A stretch of DNA of 64,000 bases from a virus: positions 124,001-188,000 of the IMG/VR virus record IMGVR_UViG_3300023174_000050; one strand, given 5' to 3'. Below, in pieces: positions 42,474 through 48,464 of the stretch (position 1 is the first letter of the stretch; each line of letters starts with the position of its first letter). Below the pieces are notes generated by a model that saw only the letters and a program-made list of their open reading frames with translations, did no database searches and was not told the origin of the DNA. Position numbers and translations under genes: made by a program.

Positions 42474-42956
42474 ATGAAAAAATTAGACATGAATGAAGTT
42501 ACTGCTTTTATCGAAGCGCAAAGTCCAGAGACCAAAATATACATTGGAGCGGATTCCGAACGATATAGAAGAAACGATAAATGGTACGCCGACTATACTC
42601 TTGCTATTGTAGTCCACATCGATGGACGCCATGGTTGTAAAATCTTTGGTGAAGTTCAAACCGAAATTGATTATGATGCAAAAAATAGCAGACCTTCCAT
42701 GCGTCTAATGAATGAAGTATATAAAGTTGCAGAACTATATCACAAACTTATAGATGCAGATGTAATTGGTGAAAAAGAAGTTCAAATTCATCTTGACATT
42801 AATCCCAAAGAATGTTATAATAGCTCTATAGTGATTCAACAAGCAGTTGGTTATATTAAAGGGACCTGTAATGTGGTACCGATGGTTAAGCCAAATGCTT
42901 TTGCAGCTAGTTATGCTGCCGATAGACTGAAAGAGGTCATGGCAATGGCGGCATAA
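42474..42956 (+). CDS. RNase H-fold protein, YkuK/DUF458-like
   Basis: A 160-residue protein with IYIGADSERY and YTLAIVVHIDGRHG, the start of the RNase H-like fold of DUF458 proteins, and a later Asp-rich IHLDINPK and a C-terminal KPNAFAASYAADRL segment. It may act on RNA or DNA. ATG 42474 has AAAGGTG upstream. The end of the gene holds the promoter for the tmRNA. Confidence 0.75.
   Translation: MKKLDMNEVTAFIEAQSPETKIYIGADSERYRRNDKWYADYTLAIVVHIDGRHGCKIFGEVQTEIDYDAKNSRPSMRLMNEVYKVAELYHKLIDADVIGEKEVQIHLDINPKECYNSSIVIQQAVGYIKGTCNVVPMVKPNAFAASYAADRLKEVMAMAA
42793..42821 (+). promoter_or_regulatory. sigma70-type promoter inside the RNase H-fold gene
   Basis: TTGACA and TATAAT with 17 bp, within the coding sequence and about 160 bases before the tmRNA acceptor piece. 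No other promoter lies nearer, so it is the likely driver of the tmRNA. Confidence 0.65.
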
Positions 42957-42979
42957 ATAATTTTATTGTTGTATGAAGC

Positions 42980-43028
42980 GAAGAGAAATGTGTTCTGGAC
43001 GGGGGTGCAAATCCCCCCAGGTCCACCA
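42980..43028 (+). ncRNA. ssrA: tmRNA acceptor piece
   Basis: The T-arm GGGGG/CCCCC with loop TGCAAAT is followed by the acceptor strand CAGGTCC, discriminator A and an encoded CCA at 43026-43028. Upstream is the part that pairs with the coding piece. The 5' end is estimated. Confidence 0.85.
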
Positions 43029-43114
43029 TAAACATACTAGCCTTTGGGTGTAGTCCGTAAGGATCAAGAGATAATTTCAAAGACCCCATATAACCAAGTT
43101 AGTATGTTTTTGAT

Positions 43115-43284
43115 GGGCCTGCATAGTTTCGACAGGGCAAATAGTAACGGAGTGGACAGCACATCAGAGTAGATGTTAAAACTAAAACAACGTAAACGCA
43201 AACGACGAAATGTTCGCATTAGCAGCCTAAACACTGCTTAGGGTTTCGGTAGGTTTCCTCGTAACAGAATAACCTACCTTTTTA
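43115..43284 (+). ncRNA. ssrA: tmRNA coding piece with tag
   Basis: It starts GGGCCTGCATAGTTTCGACA, the conserved D-like end. The resume codon GCA at 43198 opens the tag reading frame (10 codons, stop at 43228-43230). A perfect 8-bp hairpin GGTAGGTT/AACCTACC (43248-43278) and five Ts follow, a likely terminator and 3' boundary. Confidence 0.88.
43248..43283 (+). terminator. Terminator at the tmRNA coding-piece end
   Basis: An 8-bp stem (GGTAGGTT/AACCTACC) with a 15-base loop and TTTTT. It may also be part of the mature RNA. Confidence 0.7.
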
Positions 43285-43302
43285 AATTTAAAAAGGAGTT
43301 TT

Positions 43303-43866
43303 ATGAAAAAAACAGTATTAGCACTTGCGCTTTTGGCAAGTTTAACAGTCTTTGCTAGCGATAATGTAGCAGTAGACTATTCAGTTAAGAAAAAAGTTGA
43401 TTCAACACAACACAATGATGTATATGGATTAACCGTTGGTCATAAATTAGACAACGGCATTACTTCAGAAATTCGTTTTGAAAATGAAACAACTAACACT
43501 GGCAAACAAGAAGGTTTAATGCAAGTTAAAGGCATTTATGATTTGACCGGTGTGGCAGGTGTTACACCATATGTTGCAGCAGCAGTTGGTCATAAAATGA
43601 AAGCAACTGAGAATTTTGAATTCTATGTTGCGGAGGTTGGCGCAAAAACAAATTTAGGTCCTGTAGGATTAAAATTTGCATCTCGTATTCGCTCACCCTT
43701 TGATGAAGGACATATTGGTGCAGGTAGTAAATATCGTACATATGAAAATAGTTTGACTGCAGGTTATAAGTTAAACAAACTTGATACTATCAGTGTCAAA
43801 TATGCAAATGAAAAAGGTGATAGTAACTATCATACAACAGGCGTATCCTTTAGTCACGCATTTTAA
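43303..43866 (+). CDS. Outer-membrane beta-barrel protein
   Basis: A 187-residue protein with a signal peptide (KKTVLALALLASLTVFAS) and eight or so alternating amphipathic strands (for example GLTVGHKLDNGITSEIRFE), ending in a terminal Phe (GVSFSHAF), as required for insertion by the BAM machinery. It resembles small porin- or OmpA-type barrels. A phage-encoded barrel could alter the host surface, as in lambda Lom-type proteins. AAGGAG precedes the ATG, 20 bases after the tmRNA terminator. Confidence 0.78.
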   Translation: MKKTVLALALLASLTVFASDNVAVDYSVKKKVDSTQHNDVYGLTVGHKLDNGITSEIRFENETTNTGKQEGLMQVKGIYDLTGVAGVTPYVAAAVGHKMKATENFEFYVAEVGAKTNLGPVGLKFASRIRSPFDEGHIGAGSKYRTYENSLTAGYKLNKLDTISVKYANEKGDSNYHTTGVSFSHAF

Positions 43867-45940: not shown

Positions 45941-45980
45941 GCGCTTGTAGCTCAGTTGGTTAGAGCAGTGGACTCCTTAA
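45941..45980 (+). pseudogene. Truncated tRNA, 5' half with CCT anticodon
   Basis: A tRNA 5' part: acceptor GCGCTTG, TAGCTCAGTTGGTTAGAGC D-arm, and the anticodon stem GTGGA with CTCCT. The sequence then changes to an A/T-rich region and the homing endonuclease gene. No matching 3' half was found downstream. It probably was a tRNA-Arg (CCT). Confidence 0.75.
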
Positions 45981-46010
45981 AATTTATTTTTTATAAATAT
46001 AAAAAGGAGT
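45972..46010 (+). promoter_or_regulatory. RBS-masking hairpin with late promoter in the loop
   Basis: ACTCCTT of the tRNA remnant (45972-45978) is complementary to AAGGAGT (46004-46010), the ribosome-binding site of the homing endonuclease. TATAAATA (45992-45999) lies in the loop. In long upstream transcripts the site would be masked; transcripts from the late promoter would lack the left arm. This copies the known logic of T4 I-TevI, but whether the short late RNA keeps the whole ribosome-binding site depends on its exact start. Confidence 0.55.
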
Positions 46011-46014
46011 AAAT

Positions 46015-46530
46015 ATGCCTAACCAATGGACTAAAGCTAAAGAAACAGGAATACCCTACATTATTAAGGATTCTACTAGAAAAAAACTTAGCAATGCTGC
46101 AACAGAAAAAAATCTAAAATATTTTTCATCTAAAGAAAATAGAGATAAGCATTCTGATGCTATGAAATTAGCAGTAGAAAAATTTCCAAATTCGTATACA
46201 TCTTCTAACAGAGGAAGAACCAAGCAAATAGTATATGATGGTATAAAATTTCAAGGTAGGTGGGAATTAGATTTTTATAAATGGTGCATTTCTGAGAATA
46301 TACAAATTAAAAGATGTGAAGAATTTTTTGAATATAAATGGAATGGTATAAGAAAATATTTTCCAGATTTCTTTTTGCCTGAGCAAAATTTGTATGTAGA
46401 AATAAAAGGGTATGAAACTGAAAGAGATCAAGCTAAATGGTCTCAGTTTCCAAAAAAATTATTTGTGGTTAAACGAAAAGAAATATTACAAATAAAAAAA
46501 GGTAATTTTAATAAAGCGACTCTAGCATAG
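46015..46530 (+). CDS. PD-(D/E)XK-type homing endonuclease with NUMOD-like N-terminus
   Basis: A 171-residue protein. The C-terminal half has the nuclease motif P117-D118, E129-x-K131 (FPDFFLPEQ, then VEIKGY), as in PD-(D/E)XK homing enzymes found in tRNA genes. The N-terminal half (TRKKLSNAATEKNLKYFSS) resembles NUMOD DNA-binding modules. It follows a truncated tRNA and ends inside tRNA-Met, so it is a free-standing mobile gene inserted in the array. Target choice is unknown. Confidence 0.75.
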   Translation: MPNQWTKAKETGIPYIIKDSTRKKLSNAATEKNLKYFSSKENRDKHSDAMKLAVEKFPNSYTSSNRGRTKQIVYDGIKFQGRWELDFYKWCISENIQIKRCEEFFEYKWNGIRKYFPDFFLPEQNLYVEIKGYETERDQAKWSQFPKKLFVVKRKEILQIKKGNFNKATLA

Positions 46531-46590
46531 CGGTAGTGCCGAGAACTCATAATTCTTACGGGACTGGTTCGAATCCAGTGGGTCGCACCA
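46516..46590 (+). tRNA. tRNA with CAT anticodon (Met or Ile2)
   Basis: Acceptor GCGACTC/GGGTCGC, discriminator A, encoded CCA, anticodon loop CTCATAA in a GAGAA/TTCTT stem. The first 15 bases are the end of the homing endonuclease gene. Confidence 0.9.
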
Positions 46591-46603: not shown

Positions 46604-47197
46604 ATGAAACATTTTTTCGACATAGGCGGTAATCACGGACAAACTTTTGATTACCTTGCCACATTAGATCGTAGTTATAAAGATCACAAATTTTGGGTTT
46701 TTGAACCTTCCCCTAGGCATTTTGCTGTTTTGTTGGACAAGTGTAAAAGTATGTCTGCACAATATGACATTACAGTATGTCCGTTTGGTATAGGCGGCAA
46801 AACTGAGGTTAGGCACTTCCTAGAAAAAGATGATTACATGGGGGATTCATTTCAAACATGGCATGCATCTGATCATGAGGTGTTTAATTTAGACAATGGA
46901 TATTCTGTATTTTCATCTATTATTAGTTTGCCAGAGTTCATTATGAAATATACTAATTCAGATGATACTATTGTTTTGGATATTGATACTGAGGGAAGCG
47001 AGTATGAAATTATGCGCGCATTGCTAGACCATCCTCAAGCATTATCTAGGGTAACAGAGGTTATGGTTGAATGGCATCATGTAAAAGAAGATGTGGCTAC
47101 AGTATCTCCTGAGGAAGTTTCATCGGTGTGTGATCAACTTGGCATTTCGCTAGTACATAGAGGTGATAGTAAACTATTTGAAGGGATGGCGGTATGA
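46604..47197 (+). CDS. FkbM-family methyltransferase
   Basis: A 197-residue SAM-dependent methyltransferase: FFDIGGNHGQTFDYL (motif I), WVFEPSPRH and DIDTEGSEYEIMRALL (the FkbM Asp-x-Glu-Gly-x-Glu motif). It is outside the sugar island and is the third FkbM copy in the window. It overlaps the next gene by 4 bases. Confidence 0.82.
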   Translation: MKHFFDIGGNHGQTFDYLATLDRSYKDHKFWVFEPSPRHFAVLLDKCKSMSAQYDITVCPFGIGGKTEVRHFLEKDDYMGDSFQTWHASDHEVFNLDNGYSVFSSIISLPEFIMKYTNSDDTIVLDIDTEGSEYEIMRALLDHPQALSRVTEVMVEWHHVKEDVATVSPEEVSSVCDQLGISLVHRGDSKLFEGMAV

Positions 47198-47900: not shown

Positions 47901-48464
47901 ATGACACACAATTTTGAAGACCCAGTAATTCGTAAAGAAGCAAAGCGTTTACATTTAATTCGTCGTATTGATGCAAGACCATTAACTGAAGAAGAAGATG
48001 CCATGGCAACTGCCTTTGGTAAATGGGACTATCAAAAGAAGAAAGATAATTTGACTCCCTCACAAAAAGAAGCTATTCGTAAAAAAGTACGAGAAGTTGC
48101 GAGAGCAAAAAAAGCATTACCTGAGAACTTTGGTAAGCTTGAATTTACTGCTCTAAAGAATCGAGTTAAAGCAAAGGCCAAGGATGGTCGAGTAATGGGT
48201 TTCAACCTTACTCCTGAGTATATTCAAAAGGTTTTTGATGAGTGCAAAGGCAAGTGCACACTAACAGGTATTGATTACAGTATGGAATTAGGTACCAAAA
48301 AGAAACGTAATCCGTTTCGCCCTAGTGTGGATCGTATCAGTTCCAGCAAAGGATATGTCAAGGGTAACATTCAAATTGTTTTAGCAATTGTGAACACTAT
48401 GAAAATGGACTACACCGACGATATTTTACATCCGGTAATTAAGGCATGGGCTGCCAAAATTTAA
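47901..48464 (+). CDS. HNH-like endonuclease
   Basis: A 187-residue protein. The C-terminal half has a Cys pair (DECKGKCTLTGIDYS) and PSVDRISSSKGYVKGNIQIV, the HNH-like zinc-type nuclease pattern of phages (...VDRI...GYxxxN...). The N-terminal half is helical and basic. It may be a homing or packaging nuclease. A strong terminator follows. Confidence 0.65.
   Translation: MTHNFEDPVIRKEAKRLHLIRRIDARPLTEEEDAMATAFGKWDYQKKKDNLTPSQKEAIRKKVREVARAKKALPENFGKLEFTALKNRVKAKAKDGRVMGFNLTPEYIQKVFDECKGKCTLTGIDYSMELGTKKKRNPFRPSVDRISSSKGYVKGNIQIVLAIVNTMKMDYTDDILHPVIKAWAAKI

Follow-up and report, generated by a model that had tools for sequence, protein, structure and literature searches.

In the tRNA gene cluster of a T4-like phage, a tRNA gene stops abruptly within its anticodon loop and is followed by a nuclease gene, an arrangement that raises the question of how this gene came to lie there, what became of the tRNA function and how translation of the nuclease is controlled. 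The reading favored here, to which a probability of roughly 0.7 is assigned, is that the locus is a homing element residing in the anticodon loop of a tRNA-Met gene, that it carries a replacement tRNA, and that the stump of the broken tRNA would form part of a hairpin acting as a lock for late translation. The window, that is, the whole stretch of 64,000 nucleotides analysed, comes from a 190-kb virus record, in which it spans bases 124001-188000. Its T4-like identity is indicated by homologues of gp23 (E = 5e-66) and of the late sigma factor gp55 (E = 4e-21), and its tRNA gene cluster spans 38.3 to 46.6 kb. The window also holds a phage-encoded tmRNA (42936-43321; tag ANDEMFALAA; matching the beta and permuted models of Rfam), present in L016 and L042 as well, and, close to the tRNA cluster, another nuclease gene (ORF 47901-48464) with an endonuclease VII/HNH-type match (phrog_3322, E = 2e-26). 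The features of the locus are the following:

45941..45975, + strand: 5' half (bases 1-34) of a tRNA-Met(CAT), ending with CTC in the anticodon loop; alignment with the intact tRNA-Met of contigs L027-L030 stops at 45975
45972..45978, + strand: 5' arm (ACTCCTT) of a hairpin predicted to block the Shine-Dalgarno (SD) sequence, with ACTC from the tRNA and CTT from the insert; sequence, fold and family-wide co-variation
45992..45999, + strand: T4-type late promoter box TATAAATA between the hairpin arms; family-wide NNTAAATA box, gp23 box and gp55 homologue
46004..46010, + strand: 3' arm of the hairpin (AAGGAGT), including the SD sequence AAGGAG (46004-46009); pairing probability and fold
46015..46530, + strand: PD-(D/E)XK endonuclease gene (171 aa), with its TAG stop codon (46528-46530) inside the downstream tRNA; PHROG 15137 (E = 4e-17), invariant residues and AF2 model
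46516..46590, + strand: complete second tRNA-Met(CAT), likely a replacement; ARAGORN, Rfam (56 bits), 15-nt overlap with the endonuclease gene

A tRNA-Met gene interrupted in its anticodon loop

The initial annotation had described a tRNA cut at its anticodon and followed by a PD-(D/E)XK gene, and had proposed a comparison with a relative carrying an intact tRNA. Both the PHROG 15137 match and such relatives bear this description out: contigs L027-L030, which lack the homing endonuclease gene and have a gene order identical to that of the window, carry tRNA-Met(CAT) unbroken at the same locus. Aligned with the window, they match across the rubrerythrin gene and a short ORF that follows it; the alignment ends at 45975 and picks up again at 47194. 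Given this end point and the continuation of the intact tRNA as CTC/ATAATCCC (the slash marks the break; the empty site reads GGGGACTCATAATCCC), the break in the window must lie after C34 of the anticodon loop, at CTC/ATAA. The stump was also considered as a CCT tRNA, a reading that was rejected, as the empty relatives encode Met(CAT) and the apparent CCT anticodon arises at the joint between the CTC of the tRNA and the insert, whose first base provides the second C. A search for the 3' half of the broken tRNA in the window found none.

Cultivated phages display the same site in its occupied and empty forms. Among Acinetobacter phages, the empty site of Abraxas reads GGACTC/ATAATCC and Apostate harbors the same two halves around an endonuclease gene, with flanks 98-99.6% identical on both sides of the insertion at CTC/ATAA and an exact joint that is ambiguous by 2 bases (AT). 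The same kind of difference between occupied and empty site distinguishes the kutterviruses PhaxI and PLL1 (99.6%); in PhaxI a different intact tRNA-Met comes after the gene, and beyond it stand the final bases of the original tRNA region (CACCACTAAATAAACC). Three independent occupied/empty comparisons between close relatives place the insertion at a fixed site in the tRNA-Met anticodon loop. The structures of the Apostate/Abraxas and PhaxI/PLL1 pairs therefore define two states, a plain split without replacement (Apostate and CkP1, the 3' half being also seen in PX29/AsFcp_2) and a split accompanied by a replacement tRNA (the window, PhaxI, Kuja and most metagenomic contigs). Where the remaining 5' half has been lost, as in L119, L156 and L190, the stump is reduced to the anticodon arm alone. 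In IME341 (L109, 1300-2065), for which BL21(DE3) is the host on record, a relative of the endonuclease lies beside tRNA-Arg(TCT) with a stump ending in AACTTCT, possibly a switch of target tRNA.

The endonuclease and the second tRNA-Met

An alignment-based scan of IMG/VR yielded 197 relatives, of which 80 were kept (59 of them distinct); named phages with family members include Straboviridae and Ackermannviridae, and relatives of the endonuclease were also sought in bacterial genomes, where none was confirmed. The residues of the catalytic pattern (E84, P117-D118 and E129-x-K131) are invariant among 19 relatives. In agreement with the E ... PD ... (D/E)xK arrangement that characterizes the PD-(D/E)XK superfamily, the closest fold matches of the AF2 model (pLDDT 83.8) are nuclease folds, the match between the model and nuclease cores being weak; a search by sequence against solved structures gave no match.

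At this point an intron has to be considered, with the gene RNA removed from the insert and the two tRNA-Met halves then joined again, perhaps by phage RNA repair enzymes. In its favor, the single endonuclease gene of Apostate and of CkP1 has a tRNA half on either side, and these halves pair in 7/7 positions of the acceptor stem and in all (Apostate) or 4/5 (CkP1) positions of the anticodon stem. Against it, there is almost no non-coding room in the insert, and Rfam searches at E <= 1 with the window insert and with L107, L114 and L108 gave no match to a group I intron or other ribozyme, so that a group I intron was rejected and the gene is free-standing at these four loci, outside a self-splicing intron or intein. 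Moreover, the original 3' half is gone from the window, so there is nothing to rejoin there, and the intron reading is extremely improbable. It is likewise very improbable that in Apostate and CkP1 the tRNA is still made, the insert RNA being cut out and the halves joined by phage RNA repair enzymes; if true, a bacterial virus would possess a tRNA intron processed by proteins.

Returning to the homing element, the initial annotation was silent on the intact tRNA-Met at 46516-46590 even though it fell inside its interval. This second tRNA-Met differs in sequence from the broken one, and the overlap of a complete tRNA-Met with the 3' end of the element argues that the tRNA function has been replaced and not simply lost. 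The association recurs in the family: a tRNA-Met is found at the 3' end of the endonuclease gene in 55/66 loci, the stop codon of the gene lies within it in 46/66, and in 32/66 this stop is a TAG located exactly at tRNA bases 8-10. The anticodon stems of stump and replacement are never identical where both are readable. The inserted tRNA-Met often has no encoded CCA and has an acceptor stem 9-15 pairs longer, reaching into the end of the endonuclease gene (L116, L117, L129, L133, L156, L168, L174, L180, L190, L194 and 11 others); the arms of this extension co-vary (own versus swapped partners, p < 5e-5, 14 loci). Two further observations concern this end of the element. L054 (6579-6664), a syntenic locus without the endonuclease gene, has the type of tRNA-Met that follows the endonuclease in the window and no stump, and it is possibly an immune scar after gene loss or the source of the replacement tRNA. 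An FkbM-type methyltransferase gene (46604-47197) separates the inserted tRNA-Met from the conserved ORF that comes next in the window; the methyltransferase gene is missing from L027-L030 and L054, and a search for relatives of this neighbour in IMG/VR found none.

Leader hairpin and late promoter

The complementarity between ACTCCTT and AAGGAGT, and the late promoter in the loop between them, had both been pointed out in the initial annotation and hold up on closer analysis. The window contains the pattern ACTCCTT-N10..40-AAGGAGT a single time, versus 0.01 expected in shuffles, and folding of the 85-nt leader gives -23.9 kcal/mol (z = -3.35), a value that 0/200 shuffles equalled. The further claim that the anti-SD arm is a relic of the host tRNA stands for ACTC, which is tRNA-derived, and fails for CTT, which the comparison with L027-L030 assigns to the insert. 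In T4, late transcripts start about 6 nt after the promoter box. With this spacing the predicted late start is 46005, leaving one base before GGAG, and the computed probability that the SD is paired falls from ~1.0 in read-through RNA to 0.36 in RNA from 46005. A late start downstream of the ribosome-binding site had been named as an outcome that would speak against the lock, and on the predicted 46005 this is a close call.

The same plan, consisting of stump, late promoter, SD-blocking hairpin, endonuclease and tRNA-Met, is shared by ~60 non-redundant phage loci. By pattern, 56/64 leaders contain a stump of the AGCA-N5-CTC/T type (background 16%) and 62/64 a NNTAAATA box (background 8%). When hairpin arms were paired with their own or with swapped partners, the energies were -10.9 versus -7.65 kcal/mol (z = -9.6, p < 5e-5) across 40 loci retained after an 80% similarity filter, which reduces the relatedness among loci and leaves some of it. 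Examples of such arm pairs are ACTCCTACTT with AAGTAGGAGT in L158, GGCTCCTT with AAGGAGCC in L175 and AAAGCACTCGACTTT with AAAGTCGAGTGCTTT in L193. The family is not uniform: the SD is weak or unpaired in L126, L127 and L181, and the hairpin of Apostate forms downstream of CTC and leaves these bases unused.

A chance origin, in which a 7-bp complement would have arisen by accident in an AT-rich leader behind a decayed tRNA, draws on the AT-rich loop and on the fact that ORFs in the window are not infrequently preceded by octamers similar to TATAAATA. Since counts within the window are not distinctive, assignment of the promoter rests on family conservation, on the gp55 homologue encoded by the same phage and on the occurrence of TATAAATA 48 nt upstream of its gp23 start. 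With 0.01 occurrences expected per window and the arrangement recurring in dozens of phages with co-varying arms, chance is already refuted by the family comparison. The D-arm of the stump (UGGUUAG-A-GCA) can additionally pair with the start region of the endonuclease (AUGCCUAACCA; window 45957-46025), covering the start codon, in a duplex of -18.2 kcal/mol that is weaker in L116; across the family this pairing is not general (p = 0.59) and was therefore left out as evidence.

Two other roles for the stump and hairpin have to be weighed. The stump could be kept as a protein-binding operator, so that the endonuclease binds its own half-site by the late promoter and represses transcription, the hairpin being secondary. 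An operator of this kind, similar to the homing site and overlapping the late promoter, is bound by I-TevI (PMC2988022), and eroded stumps retain exactly the half-site next to the box. A binding site, however, predicts a conserved sequence, yet stump and SD arm change together while pairing is kept, which makes an operator unlikely as the main role, although both modes can coexist. Alternatively, the hairpin might be mainly an RNA processing or transcription element separating the tRNA operon from the gene, with no translational lock. Its position within a tRNA operon, a setting of heavy transcript processing, and the best arm pairing of L135 and L193, which excludes GGAG, are in line with this proposal; it is nevertheless improbable given that at most loci the SD bases fall in the paired 3' arm, that the arms in every case enclose the late box, and that an SD is mostly missing where the box directly precedes the ATG. 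Box-to-ATG spacing separates the loci into two groups, mostly 14-26 nt and, in roughly a dozen, ~5 nt. The short spacing, in most cases combined with the lack of an SD, is seen for instance in L124, L134, L136, L144, L147, L161, L169 and L182, and this layout suggests a leaderless late mRNA as a second route to late-only translation; either arrangement would favor late translation.

As to the translational lock, the SD is predicted to be paired in read-through RNA and the late promoter lies between the arms, as in hairpin control of the I-TevI type, and I-TevI-like regulation of the leader appears well supported by comparison, on the basis of the recurring plan, the co-varying arms and the occupied/empty isolate pairs. 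The proposed cycle would begin with cleavage of tRNA-Met genes that lack the element, into which repair would copy it, whereas the replacement tRNA, with its different anticodon stem, would escape cutting and restore tRNA function. Because loop bases C32-U33-C34 come with the site, each landing would regenerate a CUC able to pair with GGAG, and early read-through RNA of the tRNA operon would therefore fold into the blocking hairpin and remain untranslated. Late RNA, beginning inside the loop and devoid of the 5' arm, would be translated. One reason for the proposed early silence may be that translating ribosomes are thereby kept out of the overlapping tRNA-Met, a situation with a parallel in the I-TevI hairpin, which is reportedly needed for proper td splicing (PMC2988022).

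Relation to known homing systems

If this reading is true, a single landing site provides a selfish gene with three gains: a target that owes its conservation to its role as the Met anticodon, the ready-made start of an anti-SD arm that would keep the gene silent early, and a cost made tolerable because the element brings its own replacement tRNA. It would constitute a direct case of homing genes settling into conserved RNA genes, and may explain some of the broken and duplicated tRNA-Met genes of large phages. In the literature, which was covered in part, no description was found of the landing site, of the replacement-tRNA cassette or of a target half-site serving as anti-SD arm, and the novelty of the arrangement is provisional because of that partial coverage. 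A 2010 inventory of homing genes in T4 relatives assigns PX29 only two, which both appear in the seg-like column (PMC2993671), so the endonuclease gene was apparently uncounted there.

The regulatory logic itself is already known. I-TevI, I-TevII, I-TevIII and SegB of T4 and MobE of Aeh1 are hairpin-regulated homing endonucleases (PMC2988022), and a hairpin combined with a late promoter is established for I-TevI and SegB. As in I-TevI, SegB and MobE, where upstream transcripts sequester the SD in a hairpin that late RNA escapes through a late promoter, the same would apply in the window, and like segB the gene lies among tRNA genes. Unlike those GIY-YIG and HNH enzymes, the window nuclease is of the PD-(D/E)XK type, and its 5' arm begins in the half-site of the invaded gene; T4 segB, examined here, lies between intact tRNAs and has its own hairpin with arms that are not tRNA-derived. 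Hef (Sandegren et al. 2005, cited in PMC10448857), compared by description, is likewise a free-standing homing endonuclease of T4-like phages, but it is reported in place of mobE and not in a tRNA. By fold, the closest solved cores among the matches listed are I-Bth0305I (3r3p, probability 0.98), NGO0050 and Bax1. I-Bth0305I is an EDxHD homing endonuclease (PMC3943268) whose match is weak (E 0.04-0.07, 16% identity), and the window enzyme differs from it in its E-PD-ExK active-site pattern.

The natural comparison is with I-Ssp6803I, the PD-(D/E)XK endonuclease of the group I intron in the tRNA-fMet gene of Synechocystis (PMC1995217; Bonocora and Shub 2001, cited in PMC3984707), which is absent from the 50 fold matches listed for the model. 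I-Ssp6803I and, presumably, the window enzyme both target a methionine tRNA gene around its anticodon; unlike I-Ssp6803I, which is housed in a group I intron, the phage element lies outside any such intron and would restore the tRNA by replacement instead of splicing.
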